Source of the DNA: an uncultured Erysipelotrichaceae bacterium
Lineage (GTDB): Bacteria > Bacillota_I > Bacilli_A > Erysipelotrichales > Erysipelotrichaceae
Assembly: GCA_905201565.1 (NCBI GenBank)
Contig: CAJKOS010000046.1
Location: 1-11,713, forward strand
Length of the DNA: 11,713 nucleotides
Direction of reading: 5' to 3'
Of this stretch, positions 981-10,898 are shown one piece after another (position 1 is the stretch's first letter; each line of letters begins with the position of its first letter). The position numbers were made by a program, and so were the translations under genes. The notes under the pieces were generated by a model. The model did no database searches and was not told the DNA's origin. It saw nothing but the letters and a program-made list of their open reading frames with translations.

Positions 981-2255
981 TCATAAACAGATTGCATTAT
1001 GCTTAACAAACATCACACATTCTTCAGACCAGTGTTCCTTGTCACACCCCAGTCCTGCCACAAAGATCACCTTTCCTTCACTATTTTCCACTACTGGCCA
1101 CGTTTCCCTTTGTCCTTTAGGAACATGGCGGTCAATAAAGAAACGGTGCACTGACTTGGTGCCAAAGCGCATAGCGATCACATCCCCTTCTCTTGCATTT
1201 CGTATGGTTAAAGGAAAATCAGCTGGGGACAGGGAAACTTTTTCGATTGCTTCGCCAGTTGAACAAAGTGAGAAGTAGTCTGTTTTCATCTCCTGTATTT
1301 CATCAATCACAAATGCATACGGTACTGGTTTCTTCTGGATGTACGCTTTTCCTTCACACTGCACAAGCTCCCTGTCACCACAAGGTATCAGGAAGTCATT
1401 CTGATTCATTACGATACTGTCCATCTCTTCCATATACCTGCGGCTATAGTGATGAACACCCTTCTCATCCACAAGTTTGCGCAACGCTGTAAGGCGTACA
1501 TCCTCTTCCTCATTGCGATACAAACATAGATCCAGCGTATGACCAACAAACAATTTATCTCCCTGTTTCCTCATAGAAACAAGTTTCTTGTTCTCTTCAT
1601 CAATTTCCCGTAACAACACATCCCGTTCTTCCTTTGAGAAGGAGGACACATCCTGACGGATGATGTTTCGTGTATGCACTGGTTCAAGATTAGTATGGTC
1701 AATGTAATAGCGGATGTCATGGTTATGACAATAATCCACCAGTTCTTGTTTGGTATAGGAAAGCAAGGGTCTAACAAGCAGAACACCATGGTACATGGAT
1801 TCTTCCCGTAAACCATACCACTGCGGTATGATATTCTTCTTTCTTTGCATGATATAGGTTTCAAGAAGATCATCCTGGTGATGGGCACAAAGAATACCCG
1901 ATAGACCATATTGCTTTACAAGACTGACAAAGAAGTCATACCGCCATGTCCTTGCGGCTGCTTCAAAGTTACCAGTCCATTCAAATGGTTCATTTCTCAC
2001 ATAACAGGGAATGTTATGTGACTGACACCAGTCTCGAACATAACACTCCTCTTCTTCAGCTTCATCTCTTACATTGTAATTAACATGTGCAGCAACAATG
2101 TCCATCCCACATTCATAACACATATGCAATAAAGCCATGGAATCTGGTCCACCAGATACACCAATCAGCCATGTTCCATTTCTTCTTTCAAACATGAGAG
2201 TATTGTAGCAGGAAAAGATACGATTGCGCTGACTTCTGCAATAAACCAACTTCAT
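981..2255 (-). CDS. tilS: tRNA(Ile)-lysidine synthase
   Basis: TilS attaches lysine to C34 of the CAU-anticodon tRNA-Ile using ATP, so that it reads AUA codons; the enzyme is normally essential. The 424-residue product has the N-type ATP pyrophosphatase loop SGGPDS at residues 34-39, the block AHHQDD...ET at 124-132, ARTWRYDFF at 101-109, and a late RN-IIR motif. The C-terminal substrate-binding domain is present (about 350-415: IRNAREGDVI, then the RFFIDRHVPKGQR stretch and FVAGLGCD), so this is a full-length form. The chosen ATG follows directly on an in-frame TGA. Its Shine-Dalgarno is weak (GATGAAGA, very close to the start). A second ATG at 2193-2195 would leave only 13 residues before the P-loop motif. 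It is first in the tilS-hpt-ftsH run and divergent from the neighbouring ATPase gene. Confidence 0.95.
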   Translation of the reverse strand: MKLVYCRSQRNRIFSCYNTLMFERRNGTWLIGVSGGPDSMALLHMCYECGMDIVAAHVNYNVRDEAEEEECYVRDWCQSHNIPCYVRNEPFEWTGNFEAAARTWRYDFFVSLVKQYGLSGILCAHHQDDLLETYIMQRKKNIIPQWYGLREESMYHGVLLVRPLLSYTKQELVDYCHNHDIRYYIDHTNLEPVHTRNIIRQDVSSFSKEERDVLLREIDEENKKLVSMRKQGDKLFVGHTLDLCLYRNEEEDVRLTALRKLVDEKGVHHYSRRYMEEMDSIVMNQNDFLIPCGDRELVQCEGKAYIQKKPVPYAFVIDEIQEMKTDYFSLCSTGEAIEKVSLSPADFPLTIRNAREGDVIAMRFGTKSVHRFFIDRHVPKGQRETWPVVENSEGKVIFVAGLGCDKEHWSEECVMFVKHNAICL

Positions 2256-2330: not shown

Positions 2331-2362
2331 TTGACAACTAATCTAAAGTCTGACTTTATATT
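2331..2362 (+). promoter_or_regulatory. Predicted promoter of the DUF4143 ATPase gene
   Basis: A perfect -35 hexamer TTGACA lies at 2331-2336. The -10 is less exact: TTTATA at 2355-2360 (18 nt spacer) or TATATT at 2357-2362 (20 nt spacer). Both candidates sit inside the first copy of the 14-nt repeat element, so a protein bound to that copy would block the -10 region. Transcription would start near 2368, leaving the other two repeat copies in the 5' leader. Confidence 0.55.
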
Positions 2363-2420
2363 AGTCGGTGCAAAGCAAAAATAAATCGACTAATATAAAG
2401 TTGTATTTTATATTAGTCGG
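2353..2420. repeat. Three alternating copies of a 14-nt element (putative operator)
   Basis: The element TTTATATTAGTCGG occurs directly at 2355-2368 and 2407-2420, exactly 52 bp apart. An inverted copy, CGACTAATATAAAG, lies between them at 2387-2400. Copy 1 and the inverted copy form a perfect 15-nt inverted repeat (2353-2367 against 2387-2401). The inverted copy and copy 3 form a second inverted repeat. Such an array upstream of a single gene suggests a binding site for a dimeric or multimeric regulator. The regulator's identity is inference; the ATPase itself has a helix-turn-helix-like segment. Confidence 0.8.
2386..2420 (+). promoter_or_regulatory. Leader hairpin abutting the Shine-Dalgarno of the ATPase gene
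   Basis: Positions 2387-2399 pair perfectly with 2407-2419 (13 bp). The stem extends by a wobble at 2386/2420 and inward by a G-U and a U-A pair to a three-base loop at 2402-2404. The 3' arm runs into the first two bases of the GGAGGTG ribosome binding site (2419-2425), so the fold could limit translation initiation. It is only relevant in RNA if transcription starts upstream of 2386, as the predicted promoter implies. Confidence 0.6.
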
Positions 2421-2428
2421 AGGTGTAT

Positions 2429-3661
2429 ATGTCATATATCGAACGTGCAATTACCCCTGTTTTGAAAGAACGGGTTTCTAAAAGCAAATGTCTGCTATTG
2501 ACCGGCAGCAGACAGGTTGGAAAATCCACACTGATCCATCATGCCTTCCCTTCATACAATACCGCAAGTTTTGATGACAAGTTAACCTGGTTACAGGCAA
2601 AAGAAGAACCAGGATTGTTTTTTCTGAACAATCCATGTCCATTATTTATTGATGAAGTACAAAATGAGACTTCCATTCTCGAAGATATCAAACTTCGTGC
2701 AGACCGCACTGATGAGCGAGGACAGTTTATTTTATCTGGTTCTTCAAAGCTTGAATTAATGAAAGGTGTCAGCGAATCGCTTGCCGGACGTGTTTCTGTT
2801 TCAGAGTTGTGTGGGCTTTCCATGAGAGAACTGCACCAGGTTGACTTCAATATGCCTTTTGTACCTTCTTCAGAGTATCTTTTGAAGCGCAGGGAAAAAC
2901 TTGTACCATACAATGATATCTGGTCTTTTATTCACAATGGATTCTATCCAGAACTATATGACATCGGCAGGGATTGGATAGATTATTATTCCTCCTATGT
3001 TTCCACCTATTTGGAACGTGACATCAACAAGCTCATTTCTGCGGATAGTCTTACATTCACCCGATTCATGACGGCAGTAGCCGCAAGAACCGGAGAGATG
3101 CTGAACTATCGGAATATTGCAAATGCGACTGGTGTCAGCGAACCAACCATCAAGTCCTGGATTTCCATACTGGAAAGAACAGGCATCGTTACCATCCTGC
3201 AGCCATATAGCGCAAGTGCTATGACCAGGGCAATCAAAACACCGAAGATCTACTTCAGGGACACTGGGCTTGCCTGTTATCTGACCCGCTGGCTGACTGC
3301 AGATGCATTGCAGAACTCTGCTGTCAGTGGAAACATGTTTGAGACATTTGTTGTTTCTGAGATCATTAAGTCTTATGCCAATGCAGGAAGAGACTACCGT
3401 TTCAATATCTACTACTACCGTGGCAAGGATAAGCTGACAAGTAGTGAAAACGAAATTGATCTCATCATAGAAGAAAACGGTATTCTCTATCCAATTGAAA
3501 TCAAGATGACGGCTAACCCAAAGGCTTCTATGGCATCCGCAAATTCCATCCTTGACAAAGTCAGTGAAAAGAAACGGGGTACAGGCGTAATTCTATGCAT
3601 GGTTGACAAGATGACATGGCTCAGGGAGAACCTTGTTGCCCTCCCTGTGTCATGGATCTGA
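2429..3661 (+). CDS. AAA-family ATPase with DUF4143 domain
   Basis: This 410-residue protein is of the widespread AAA_14/DUF4143 type, whose cellular role is not established. The ATPase part has Walker A GSRQVGKST at 26-34 (most relatives have Pro at the position of S27), Walker B LFIDEVQ at 72-78, and the sensor-like LSGSS (102-106) and AGR (119-121). A helix-turn-helix-like stretch follows at about 225-253 (YRNIANATGVSEPTIKSWIS). Near the C-terminus, D344, E357 and K359 in the EIDLII...PIEIK pattern match the PD-(D/E)XK nuclease fold that often ends DUF4143 proteins. A GTG at 2423 is also in frame, but it lies inside the GGAGGTG Shine-Dalgarno (2419-2425), which serves the ATG at 2429 with 5 nt spacing. 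It is monocistronic, divergent from tilS and convergent with the PemK-like gene. Its control region with three repeat copies suggests autoregulation, which is inference. Confidence 0.9.
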   Translation: MSYIERAITPVLKERVSKSKCLLLTGSRQVGKSTLIHHAFPSYNTASFDDKLTWLQAKEEPGLFFLNNPCPLFIDEVQNETSILEDIKLRADRTDERGQFILSGSSKLELMKGVSESLAGRVSVSELCGLSMRELHQVDFNMPFVPSSEYLLKRREKLVPYNDIWSFIHNGFYPELYDIGRDWIDYYSSYVSTYLERDINKLISADSLTFTRFMTAVAARTGEMLNYRNIANATGVSEPTIKSWISILERTGIVTILQPYSASAMTRAIKTPKIYFRDTGLACYLTRWLTADALQNSAVSGNMFETFVVSEIIKSYANAGRDYRFNIYYYRGKDKLTSSENEIDLIIEENGILYPIEIKMTANPKASMASANSILDKVSEKKRGTGVILCMVDKMTWLRENLVALPVSWI

Positions 3662-3664
3662 GTT

Positions 3665-4180
3665 TCACATCTTCCCCATCATAAGTTTTAACAATCTTTC
3701 CTGAATGATCGCAAACAAGGCACTGTCTGTGGAGATGTGTGCTTTAACATCTATGACCCTTGCGGTGTTGACAAACTTCATGTCATTGAGGAAGAGCACC
3801 GAAGGTTTGTTCATACCAGGTACCTTGCCTATGCGCAGCAGGTGTTTGGAACCATGTGGGTTTGTCTTTGGATCATAGGCACTTCTGTATTGGATGGCAT
3901 TGCTTGTCATCGGTACAACAAGTGCCTTTTCACGATACAGCACCATGATCAGTCCAAAGTGCTGGTAGCCCATCTCGTTGAGATAGGCTTGTCCAAAGTC
4001 CATGTAACAGATGTCACCTGTACGCACAGTGATGCCAAGGTCATTACAGCTGGTACATCGGGAGCGGATGATCCAGTTTGCCTCCGAGATGAGGTTGTGT
4101 TCAAGATTGTTGGGCTGGATGGTTTCATAAACCTCACAGCGGGAACGGATATAGTTGTTCCAGGAAGTATTTTCATTCAT
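3665..4180 (-). CDS. PemK/MazF-like family protein
   Basis: The 171-residue product has, from about residue 54, the pattern of the PemK/MazF fold. It opens with TGDICYMDFG, continues with the strand pair FGLIMVLYREKALVVPMTSN (75-94), and has a late VLFLNDMKFVNTARVID block (128-144). Classical MazF toxins are ribosome-independent endoribonucleases of about 110-120 residues. This one has an extra N-terminal region of about 50 residues with a CTSC pair (42-45), and the usual GxRP motif before the second strand reads YQHFG, so RNase activity is uncertain. No antitoxin gene is adjacent. The ATG at 4178-4180 is supported by AAAGGGGA at 4187-4194 (7 nt spacing); upstream in-frame ATGs at 4186 and 4231 lack a suitably spaced site. 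It follows the upp-operon terminator, and its stop is 3 nt from the stop of the convergent ATPase gene. Confidence 0.65.
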   Translation of the reverse strand: MNENTSWNNYIRSRCEVYETIQPNNLEHNLISEANWIIRSRCTSCNDLGITVRTGDICYMDFGQAYLNEMGYQHFGLIMVLYREKALVVPMTSNAIQYRSAYDPKTNPHGSKHLLRIGKVPGMNKPSVLFLNDMKFVNTARVIDVKAHISTDSALFAIIQERLLKLMMGKM

Positions 4181-4251
4181 ATGCATTCCCCTTTCACTAT
4201 TTCTATTCCCTGTAAAATCGATTTTCCTCACTTTTTCTTCAAAAAAGTATT

Positions 4252-6796: not shown

Positions 6797-8389
6797 TTAT
6801 TTTTCGGTTACTGTTCTTACAGCACCATTGCCACCCATCTTTTCATTTCTCTCACTAACATCAGAGTTTATAAGATTTGCCCTTTCTTCCATAAATTCTG
6901 AATCAGCCATTAATTTCCGATTTTCATCTTCAACACCAAACATTTCAGTTAATGTTTCTGTTCCAGAGAACAGGTTTGTGCCTAGACCAAGCCTGTCTCC
7001 CTCAATGGTTGCGCCAAGTGCCGCAACAGTTGTTGGAAATGTGTCAAAAGAAGAATAAATACGGTAACTATCAGATGCCTGGTTAGTTGCTGCGGGATTA
7101 ATGTATGCCGTATAAACCTTTCTTTGGTAGTTTTCCGGTATATCTGCACAAAAGTCACTATCCATGGTTGGATGGTCACCAGTGATAACGATAGTTGTAT
7201 TGGCATACCATGGCTGCTGCGCACACCAATCCAGGAATGCACTTAACTGACGGCTGGCACATGAATAAACATTGGCATATTGATTTGAACCATGTTCTTC
7301 TCCGCATAGTTCACAAACGAAGCCATCCTCAAAATGCGTATCTACCGTTAACATTGTGAGATTAAACGGCTGTCCGGAACTACCAAGTTCGGTAAGTTTC
7401 TCCTGGGCAAACTGGTACAAGTACATATCTTCATAACCCCACCAGACTGAATAATCATCTGAAGGCAGTTTATGATTACTTTGCATATAAGGATGGTCAA
7501 GGATTTCATAATTTCCATGTGTTGAATAGTACAGTCTTCTGCCACCAAATGTCGCATCAGAACCAATGAGTAACGTATTGTGGTAACCATTGTCTTCCAG
7601 AATGTCACCTAATGTTTGTGTAGTAGAAAAGAACTGTGTCTGTTTATCCATCGAGTTATAATCTTTGAGATTCACCTTCATTGGAAGCCCTGAAGAAGAA
7701 CCAAACATTGCACCGATCGTCCACGTCGCACCGCTTAGTGCATATGCACCATTAAGTGTTGTATTACTTCCAGAGAATGTTTCATTGTTCAAAGCAATAT
7801 TTGTCAGTTCTGGAATCACATCTTCATCAAATGCACCACCATATTGTTTCGAGGAGAATGTTATTTCAGTTGATTCAAGATAAATCATGAGAAGGTTTCT
7901 CTTCTGTTCAGGAAAGGTAATGTTCACATTTATCGGATCTACATAATAATTTTCAATAAACTTTTTGTTTTCAATATTATTAGCATCAAGATATGCATTA
8001 ACATCCAGTCTTTCATAGACAACAGTTGCCGAAAAGCCTACCATTCCTGCTGTCGCAAAGATCATTGCGGTGCGCAATACCCTTCTGCCATTCTTCTTCA
8101 GGAAATGAATCAGTACAATGGCAACCATTACTGCAATAATGGAAGGAAGAAGAGCCGTCAAAATAAAGTCCTGAATCATCTCCGAATTGGTGCCTTCAAT
8201 AGGAGCATTGATCTGGTATAACAACTCATCGAGTTTGACATGAGGAAATGTTTTAAACAGCCAGAACATACTGAAAAGAACTAACGACCCTGCCCAGAAG
8301 AGAACCAGCGTCAGAAAGTTCATCAGTTTCAATATTAACATCAATGTTTTATAACTTAGCGTTTTTACGTGTTTCTTTACCTGTGCCAT
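6797..8389 (-). CDS. LtaS/OpgB-like phosphoglycerol transferase (sulfatase superfamily), paralogue 1
   Basis: The 530-residue membrane enzyme belongs to the LTA synthase/MdoB group, which moves glycerol-phosphate from phosphatidylglycerol onto a growing polymer on the outer face of the membrane. Hydrophobic segments lie at about 15-46, 75-97 and 106-124, followed by an extracytoplasmic sulfatase-fold domain. By analogy with LtaS, metal/active-site residues are E172 (in IYLESTE), the nucleophile T222 (GATWTIG), H352 (DTHFEDG) and D405-H406 (GDHPTMD). A CELC pair (359-362) and C377 match the cysteine-bearing OpgB-like subgroup. The ATG at 8387-8389 has AAAGGAGA just upstream; an in-frame ATG at 8440 would add 17 residues without a comparable site. 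It is about 95 nt downstream of the SH3b gene and closely related to the enzyme encoded at 9189-10790. Whether it makes lipoteichoic acid or decorates another polymer cannot be told. Confidence 0.9.
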   Translation of the reverse strand: MAQVKKHVKTLSYKTLMLILKLMNFLTLVLFWAGSLVLFSMFWLFKTFPHVKLDELLYQINAPIEGTNSEMIQDFILTALLPSIIAVMVAIVLIHFLKKNGRRVLRTAMIFATAGMVGFSATVVYERLDVNAYLDANNIENKKFIENYYVDPINVNITFPEQKRNLLMIYLESTEITFSSKQYGGAFDEDVIPELTNIALNNETFSGSNTTLNGAYALSGATWTIGAMFGSSSGLPMKVNLKDYNSMDKQTQFFSTTQTLGDILEDNGYHNTLLIGSDATFGGRRLYYSTHGNYEILDHPYMQSNHKLPSDDYSVWWGYEDMYLYQFAQEKLTELGSSGQPFNLTMLTVDTHFEDGFVCELCGEEHGSNQYANVYSCASRQLSAFLDWCAQQPWYANTTIVITGDHPTMDSDFCADIPENYQRKVYTAYINPAATNQASDSYRIYSSFDTFPTTVAALGATIEGDRLGLGTNLFSGTETLTEMFGVEDENRKLMADSEFMEERANLINSDVSERNEKMGGNGAVRTVTEK

Positions 8390-8454
8390 GACTCTCCTTT
8401 CAAAATTCAGAAACAGTCTAACACAACACGTAAAATTCATGAAAAGAAAACATT

Positions 8455-9188: not shown

Positions 9189-10790
9189 TTACTCCCCTTC
9201 ATCGTAAACCGTCTTGCCATGGTCTTCATGGTAGGACTTTGCCTGGTTCTCTCTCAGTTCTTCACTTGTAAAGTCAATGTCTGCCAGTTCTTCCATGAAC
9301 TCTGATTTCTTGTTCATTTCTTCTGTGACTGTTTCCAATCCATATTGTTCTAGCAGCGTTGGTTCATCTGAGAACAGGTTAGTGCCAAGTCCTAATTTGT
9401 TTCCTTCAATGGTTACTCCCATTGCCGCAAGGGTAGTTGGGAAATGATCCATTGTAGAGTATTCTCTGTAACTGTCTGACTGAACAATTACAGCTGAGTT
9501 GATATAAGAGACATATGCCCTTCTCTGGTAGCCATCCTGCATATCATTGGTGAAGTCGCCATCCATGGTTGGGTGGTCTCCCACAAGGATAATCGTTGTA
9601 TTATCATACCATGGCTGTTCTTTACACCAGTCAAGGAATTCCTCTACCTGTTTTGATGAACAAGCCATCACATCTGCGTATTGGTTACCATCAAATTCTT
9701 CACTGTATGCATTACCGCATATATCACACTTATAACCATCTTCGAAGTGTGTATCAACCGTTAACATCGTGAGGTTAAATGGTTCTTCTTGTGTAGAAAG
9801 GTTATTCAATACATCTTTGGCAAAGCTGAACAGCTTTTGATCTTCATAACCCCACCATACTTCATAGTCATCTGGAATCAATCCATTATCCTGTGCATAA
9901 CCATGGTCATAAATGGTGTAGTTACCATGTTCTGTGAAGTACAGTCTTCTTCCACCAAATGTCGCATCAGAACCAATCAGTAATGTATTACTGTAACCAT
10001 TGTCTTCAAGAATATCTCCAAAACATGTTGTGTCCGCAAAGAACCTTGACTGGGTGACCATGTCATTGTTTTCAAGGTTGTTTTTCAAAGGAAGACCAGA
10101 AGTTTGTGCAAACATAGCGCCCATAGTCCATGTCGTATACGGAAGTGCATACGCACCATTAAGTTTAGTTTCACTACCAGAGAAGTCTTCATTGCTTTGT
10201 GCAATATCTGTCAGTTCTGGAATCACATTCACATCAAAGCCACCACCATGAGATACATCAGAATATGTTGTTTCCATTGATTCAAGGAAGATATAAATCA
10301 GATTTCTTTTCTGTTCCGGGAAAACCACTTCAACATCCGTAGGATCTACATACTCATCCTCAATAAACTTTGATTCTGTATTCTGATCTTTCAGATAATC
10401 TCCGACTCCCAGTTCTGTCCAGGTATATCCCAACATCACAATAATCCCGACCAGTGCGACCAGGTTGATGATTCCTCTGAACAGATGTACTTTTTCTTTT
10501 TTTCTCCATGCTATCAGGATCAAAATAAGGAAGAAAATCACCAGAATTGTCGGGACAGCACAGACACGGACATAATCCCATATCATATCCGTATTTGTAC
10601 CGTCTAAAGGTGCTGTCAGATGATACACCAGTTCATCCATCGACAAATTCGTCCATGTTGCAAACATCCATCTTACACTTAATGCCAGGAGTACACTAAG
10701 TCCGGCTATAAAAACAGTCAGTATTTCACCCACCCAGTATAAAATCTTCAATAGAATCTCTTTCCATTTTGACGGCTGCTTTTCTCCCAT
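9189..10790 (-). CDS. LtaS/OpgB-like phosphoglycerol transferase (sulfatase superfamily), paralogue 2
   Basis: The 533-residue enzyme shares the layout and catalytic blocks of the 6797-8389 product. Hydrophobic segments lie at about 14-46, 76-96 and 105-125. Predicted catalytic residues are E170 (IFLESME), nucleophile T220 (YTTWTMG), H348 (DTHFEDG) and D405-H406 (GDHPTMD). A CDIC pair (355-358) and C377 are conserved with the paralogue. The C-terminus differs and ends in a charged tail. The start is uncertain. The ATG at 10788-10790 has AAGGCGG about 9 nt upstream and gives the same N-terminal spacing to the first helix as the paralogue. An ATG at 10836-10838 would add 16 residues (very basic, KRREKRRKRK) but has only GGGA two bases away. 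It is first of three same-strand envelope genes, behind an extended -10 promoter. Confidence 0.9.
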   Translation of the reverse strand: MGEKQPSKWKEILLKILYWVGEILTVFIAGLSVLLALSVRWMFATWTNLSMDELVYHLTAPLDGTNTDMIWDYVRVCAVPTILVIFFLILILIAWRKKEKVHLFRGIINLVALVGIIVMLGYTWTELGVGDYLKDQNTESKFIEDEYVDPTDVEVVFPEQKRNLIYIFLESMETTYSDVSHGGGFDVNVIPELTDIAQSNEDFSGSETKLNGAYALPYTTWTMGAMFAQTSGLPLKNNLENNDMVTQSRFFADTTCFGDILEDNGYSNTLLIGSDATFGGRRLYFTEHGNYTIYDHGYAQDNGLIPDDYEVWWGYEDQKLFSFAKDVLNNLSTQEEPFNLTMLTVDTHFEDGYKCDICGNAYSEEFDGNQYADVMACSSKQVEEFLDWCKEQPWYDNTTIILVGDHPTMDGDFTNDMQDGYQRRAYVSYINSAVIVQSDSYREYSTMDHFPTTLAAMGVTIEGNKLGLGTNLFSDEPTLLEQYGLETVTEEMNKKSEFMEELADIDFTSEELRENQAKSYHEDHGKTVYDEGE

Positions 10791-10898
10791 TTTTCTTTTC
10801 CGCCTTTTTTCCCTTCTTTTTGAACTATTATTTTGCATTCCCGTTCTCTTTTCTTTAGTTTTTCTTAATTTTTACTTAATTTTCACACACTATCCGCC

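Follow-up and report, generated by a model that had tools for sequence, protein, structure and literature searches.

The region directly upstream of the AAA_14-DUF4143 ATPase gene in an 11,713-nt stretch from an uncultured Erysipelotrichaceae bacterium (hereafter the window) is probably an autoregulatory operator, at which the ATPase-nuclease would bind dyads and repress its own promoter. The evidence is computational and consists of the dyads, their conservation, their overlap with the promoter, the near absence of such sites away from this gene, and a coupled change of recognition-helix residues and operator bases. According to the proposed mechanism, a dimer or higher oligomer of the ATPase-nuclease would bind a 31-35 bp dyad at its own gene, with a winged helix between the ATPase and nuclease domains reading the inner part of each half-site. 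The bound dyad would cover the -10, the transcription start and the DNA leading to the ribosome binding site, and would thereby block RNA polymerase at sufficient protein, acting in repression rather than activation. In about a third of the loci, including the window, a second dyad about five or six helical turns upstream may support cooperative binding or a DNA loop. The coordinates of the features are collected in Table 1.

Table 1. Features of the operator region, the ATPase-nuclease gene and its divergent neighbour, in positions of the window
Feature	Positions	Strand	Basis or detail
tilS, divergent neighbour, outside the module	981..2255	-	PF01171 and PF11734
TTGACA hexamer of the promoter in the earlier note, before the distal dyad	2331..2336	+	sequence
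Distal operator dyad, 31 bp, centre 2351	2336..2366	+	half-sites 2336-2349, 2353-2366
Weak candidate -35 GTGCAA (3 of 6), 17 bp from the candidate -10	2368..2373	+	read from sequence
Proximal operator dyad, 31 bp, centre 2403, with outer pairs about 2386-2420	2388..2418	+	half-sites 2388-2401, 2405-2418
Candidate -10 TAATAT, left arm of the proximal dyad	2391..2396	+	-10 position in homologues; hexamer read by eye
Shine-Dalgarno GGAGG, adjoins the dyad	2419..2423	+	sequence
AAA_14-DUF4143 ATPase, 410 aa, predicted operator reader	2429..3661	+	Pfam PF13173 and PF13635, PADLOC PDC-S01
Winged-helix segment, residues 206-262	3044..3214	+	AlphaFold2 helices 207-219, 227-234, 238-251
Predicted recognition helix (start and body), residues 237-251	3137..3181	+	237 and 239 are coupled to half-site position 5
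PD-(D/E)XK-like motif E342-x-D344 ... E357-x-K359 in DUF4143	3452..3505	+	residues invariant in alignments

Proposed operator dyads and the ATPase-nuclease gene

The window protein belongs to the AAA_14 plus DUF4143 proteins, since PF13173 (74.8 bits) and PF13635 (143.3 bits) both exceed their cut-offs, and the model of PDC-S01, a phage-defence candidate in PADLOC, spans its residues 1-408 (E 1.3e-94). The conserved acidic and lysine residues of DUF4143 form what we take to be the motif of the PD-(D/E)XK superfamily, and the protein is a suspected anti-phage ATPase-nuclease. PMC12988326 describes PDC-S01 as an ATPase fused to the PD-(D/E)XK superfamily. The winged helix is placed between the ATPase and the nuclease domain; of the five AlphaFold2 models the best alone is good (mean pLDDT 79; the others 70, 54, 47 and 43), and HTH_36 matches residues 226-254 weakly, under its cut-off. 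The top Foldseek matches, Cdn1 and Can2, have TM-scores of 0.18-0.25 and were set aside. A PDB sequence search using the alignment gave no match, and a search of viral contigs found no relative. Around the module, tilS starts at 2255, and a convergent 188-residue reading frame (3665-4231, minus strand) without a Pfam or PADLOC match lies 3' of the ATPase gene. Two long reading frames lie near each other further along the minus strand; the one at 6797-8440 is a PF00884 sulfatase, and the one at 9189-10838 resembles it by eye.

The earlier note had described a 14-nt element present three times in direct-inverted-direct order. These copies are found at 2353-2366, 2388-2401 (inverted) and 2405-2418, with the direct copies exactly 52 bp apart as claimed, but a fourth half-site had been missed, which comes first along the DNA (2336-2349; 12 of 14 positions match), and the unit is instead two dyads with centres 52 bp apart. 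Each dyad holds two half-sites of the type GACTAATMTAAAGT, some with one or two changes. Counted along the DNA, the third and fourth half-sites form the 13-bp perfect stem (2387-2399/2407-2419) that had been reported to end in the Shine-Dalgarno, and it does adjoin GGAGG. A 13-nt perfect inverted pair occurs in 120 of 5000 shuffles of positions 2200-2440 and in 179 of 300 shuffles of the entire window; judged from the window alone, the stem is only moderately beyond chance. Whether the repeats exceed chance is decided by conservation upstream of homologues and not by the window.

A scan of genome contigs found at least 558 relatives, and the 80 best of them, with proteins 70-77% identical, make up the close set; together with the window this gives 81 loci. 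The half-site consensus used for the dyad search came from the loci of this set themselves. At least one dyad is present upstream in 79 of the 81, the window included, and two or more in 28, the window again among them; absence of the element upstream of orthologues, which had been named as grounds for refutation, was thus not observed. The two loci without the element at threshold are L017 and L026, and L026 shows a shortened version by eye. A dyad lies within 60 bp of the start codon in 76 loci, with the centre of this proximal dyad 26-53 bp before the start codon (26-33 in 61 of the 76); in three loci (L042, L056 and L059) the dyad is found only further upstream. No neighbouring protein family is common to more than 8 of the 81 loci (flanks up to 3 kb except for the window), and hence no partner regulator is in sight. 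The gene and operator also occur together in MAGs labelled Eggerthellaceae and Spirochaetaceae, besides Lachnospiraceae and Erysipelotrichaceae (L065, L067 and L075 were noted), which suggests joint transfer, or binning errors.

Promoter position and the nature of the stem

Positions 4-9 of the dyad match TATAAT at five or six of six letters in 64 of the 76 proximal dyads; this match depends on the search consensus, whereas the match at the -35 is independent of it. A TTGACA-like hexamer (5-6 of 6 letters) stands 16-18 bp before this -10 in 59 of the 76 (searched at 15-19 bp), at exactly 17 bp in 52, and single-letter shuffles of the upstream sequence contain such a -35 at a rate of 2.8%. From this -10/-35 geometry in the homologues, the dyad covers the -10, the predicted transcription start and the run to the ribosome binding site, and a dyad over the promoter of the putative regulator's own gene is conserved in homologues. 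The proposal that the first copy covers the -10 of a TTGACA promoter is doubtful, because the homologues put the -10 in the third half-site (2391-2396), and because TTGACA at 2331-2336 leads, at 18 bp spacing, to TTTATA at 2355-2360 inside the distal dyad, which by eye agrees with TATAAT at 3 of 6 letters. The window could use either this TTGACA or the poor GTGCAA/TAATAT promoter.

Most proximal copies have broken base pairs under the -10: pair 7 is Watson-Crick in 13 of 76 of them and pair 8 in 5 of 76, whereas the further copies keep pair 7 in 23 of 29 and pair 8 in 18 of 29, and reach 5 of 6 TATAAT letters in just 3 of 29. Operator and promoter thus seem to be reconciled by compromise in the left arm of the proximal dyad; the operator in the distal copies appears less disturbed.

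Following the possibility of alternative structures raised in the earlier note, the repeats could be an RNA switch, in which the proximal leader stem would hide or free the ribosome binding site and the first copy would serve as the alternative partner. The window offers some encouragement for such a switch, as its stem is perfect over 13 bp, folding z-scores are -6.4 for 2337-2440, -4.4 for 2366-2440 and -4.4 to -7.7 over the stretches holding the stem, and the stem would be transcribed if the promoter at 2331-2336 were used. The homologues point the other way. Their -10 lies in the left arm, so most of that arm would be untranscribed; pair 7 is not Watson-Crick in 63 of 76 and pair 8 not in 71 of 76, so that the base pairs are not kept in a transcribed leader across homologues; GGAGG is mostly outside the stem; and a search of Rfam returned four matches, all to unrelated microRNA families and far under their gathering scores. 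With pairs 7 and 8 broken under the -10 and the start predicted inside the dyad, the element is better explained as a DNA operator than as an RNA hairpin, and we rejected the RNA switch, which we consider very improbable.

A T-rich stretch follows 12 of 32 distal or far copies (including the three loci with a shifted dyad) compared with 3 of 76 proximal copies, and some distal copies may double as terminators; by eye, neither copy in the window has such a stretch after it. The 27 dyad-dyad spacings range from 49 to 69 bp and give R 0.37 at 10.5 bp, a value reached by 0.022 of uniform draws; the rows are related, and the indication of helical phasing of the paired dyads is weak.

Distribution of the sites and diverged homologues

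A degenerate operator pattern with up to two mismatches was run on 20 genomes chosen for holding the gene. The pattern gave 70 strand matches versus 17 for the reversed control, and the 37 matching places comprise 33 at the gene, one downstream and three isolated two-mismatch matches. A second scan covered 200 genomes from the same family, allowed at most one mismatch, and gave 29 strand matches versus 7 for the control, in 18 places in 17 genomes. Seven of these places are in 6 genomes with a homologue of at least 70% identity, and the site is present in all 6 such genomes. Three stand before homologues of about 41% identity, one of which is visible over its first 131 residues only, two before decayed gene remnants (L169 and L172), and one (L174) is 86 bp short of a contig end, with first codons that by eye resemble those of the gene. 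The remaining five are without a relative nearby, and one of them, L171, looks like a true orphan site. The sites are therefore nearly confined to this gene and its remnants (33 of the 37 places in the first scan; 5 of 18 without a relative nearby in the second).

Several observations were made along with the scans. The operators at L172:1501-1531 and L169:1501-1531 outlast the gene, and L169 retains a short piece of the C-terminal domain. The downstream place of the first scan, L032:5185-5219, is an extra dyad about 1 kb past the ATPase gene, between convergent frames, and is followed by a terminator-like T-run. One 3.5 Mb genome (G002) has 22 DUF4143 matches, many paralogues together.

From the first loci and further genomes together, 240 unique homologues were pooled; 155 of them are diverged, and 150 of those have 130 bp of upstream sequence. 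The last 130 bp before the gene were searched without a consensus for dyads of at least 12 of 16 pairs. Such dyads are found at 69 of the 150 diverged homologues versus 3.5 expected from dinucleotide shuffles, and in 4 of 146 cases in the shorter control block from -220 to -121; the other 81 homologues fall below 12 of 16 pairs. Dyads of at least 14 pairs precede 25 diverged genes versus 0.03 expected, with 1 of 146 in the control block. The diverged dyads have the same build but another sequence, for example TCGACTAATTTGGAGTTAAACTCCAAATTAGTCGA (L258) and TGGGATAATCCAAACTGCCACTTTGGATTATCCCA (L262), and their arms change together. Plasmid copies of the gene in Moraxella bovis and Treponema succinifaciens have dyads of 16 of 16 pairs; the Treponema copy has the dyad of L258 and is probably the same record. 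Among 10 other plasmid homologues (27-35% identity), 8 have no dyad beyond shuffles. An alphaproteobacterial plasmid homologue of about 29% identity (L327:300-398) shows by eye three spaced direct repeats, TTTCAAWCRGTCA, and no dyad.

Residue-base coupling, alternative regulators and known systems

In partial Mantel tests on whole segments, the winged helix did not stand out. Its partial r is 0.097 for 113 sequences (73 of 999 permutations at or above), 0.058 for 32 diverged sequences (183 of 999; 1 of 999 for the AAA segment and 5 of 999 for the nuclease) and -0.043 for 69 diverged sequences (741 of 999; 29 for the AAA and 22 for the middle segment). The winged-helix segment predicts operator similarity no better than other segments, and the AAA or middle segment does so better in some sets.

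A second, finer test by single residues was run after this negative result and then repeated with different sets and weights. Among 350 columns, residue 239 ranks first and residue 237 fourth in coupling to the operator, both with half-site position 5, and both lead or nearly lead with either operator arm. Recognition-helix columns make up 4 of the top 10, compared with 1 of the top 10 when the 5' flank is used as a control and 0 of the top 10 in each of three runs with operators shuffled in strata. The enrichment drops to 2 of the top 10 (P about 0.02) when the sets are stricter or limited to the left arm, and the rank-sum P for the recognition helix runs from 0.001 to 0.12 over nine settings. 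The second-ranking column, residue 334, is in the nuclease domain, and DUF4143 loop residues 333-334 (window 3425-3430) couple with positions 13 and 16 in the outer part of the half-site, which would fit a contact of the nuclease domain with the operator as well.

An acidic residue reading cytosine is chemically sensible, and C on both arms at position 5 is found in 16 of 24 operators with Asp237 versus 2 of 164 without Asp. Among diverged homologues with dyads of at least 13 pairs, the figures are 11 of 12 for Asp237 and 1 of 33 for the others. By eye, the dyads of six of the eight Asp237 exceptions appear spurious, and the remaining two exceptions carry C on a single arm; L241, counted as a match, has a doubtful dyad as well. 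Parsimony on a tree from which the winged helix was left out gives six gains of Asp237 (two of the clades are nested), and C on both arms occurs in three non-nested gain clades and is missing from two. The combination Ser237 and Pro239 goes with T on both arms in 107 of 118 cases, mostly close relatives. A new sample was obtained with an Asp237-type query from 398 genomes of the phylum, to which five plasmid copies were added. Of its 33 proteins, 18 have a dyad of 11 pairs or more; identical proteins alone were removed, so that some rows are kin of earlier ones. At this threshold C stands on both arms in 4 of 5 Asp237 cases versus 1 of 13 others, and that one has Glu237, although grouping Glu with Asp here is post hoc. 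With dyads of at least 12 pairs, the counts are 3 of 3 versus 1 of 8.

These results bear on two further explanations of the dyads. A separate regulator of the host or of a mobile element could bind them, the ATPase taking no part in its own control. Binding by the ATPase is a prediction from sequence, the segment-level test did not favour the winged helix, and other DUF4143 proteins could bind in trans, given the 22 matches in one genome. Such a regulator would nevertheless have to serve sites that are almost private to this gene, with no shared neighbour in the flanks, and to accompany the same operator before the gene in MAGs labelled as four families; moreover, the operator sequence shifts with the gene lineage and with residues 237-239 of the gene's own recognition helix. 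We regard a separate regulator as unlikely, while still giving it some weight. Less plausible still is that the dyad is mainly the target or end of a DNA transaction (a cleavage site, a mobile-element end or an invertible segment) and overlaps the promoter by accident. The nuclease-like domain, the operators that persist beside decayed remnants and the stray dyad downstream in one locus fit such a role, but a linked downstream copy occurs in 1 of the 20 genomes, and the fixed 17-bp promoter geometry would be left unexplained. Autoregulation by the ATPase, which the earlier note had raised as an idea, is accordingly the reading that we prefer; operators at the gene's own promoter are well supported by computation, and control by the ATPase itself is predicted, with two dyads in place of the three-copy unit.

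A wider reading, which we put forward tentatively, is that PDC-S01-like nuclease-ATPases, as a whole class, may act as transcription factors for their own genes, with private operators and a protein-DNA code that can be read. By this code an acidic residue 237 would call for C at position 5 and Ser237-Pro239 for T, and residue 238 would follow position 8. If so, private operators would keep the many paralogues in one genome from acting on one another's promoters, a possible reason why they coexist. As the winged helix that reads the DNA lies between the ATPase and nuclease domains, the operator-bound form could also be the resting state; release from the operator upon infection would then increase expression and at the same time set the nuclease free. 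A private operator and a recognition rule would also provide a handle, as a reporter of DNA release and a route to the trigger.

PDC-S01 is among the most frequent unexplained defence candidates. PMC12988326 ranks it as the fourth commonest defence in prokaryotes, and PMC13356809, a rumen survey, counts 10,358 PDC-S01 loci, the most frequent individual locus. No regulation of PDC-S01 is described in the available parts of these two papers, and the system is not named in the available part of PMC11514479. In the literature searched, whose coverage lay outside preprints and most subscription papers, we found no report of this operator or of PDC-S01 control. STAND-like and archaeal AAA+ ATPases (2qen, 2fna) are among the closest systems, and CED-4 and Apaf-1 are more distant. 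The winged helix of Apaf-1-like proteins belongs to the switch and is not a DNA reader, whereas the one described here appears to read the promoter of its own gene. Another parallel is offered by self-repressing toxin-antitoxin operons and restriction-modification C proteins, as small self-contained modules whose own promoter is controlled through dyads over the -10 or start. In those systems a separate antitoxin or C protein does the binding; here no partner gene recurs in the flanks, and the effector-like ATPase-nuclease itself seems to bind.
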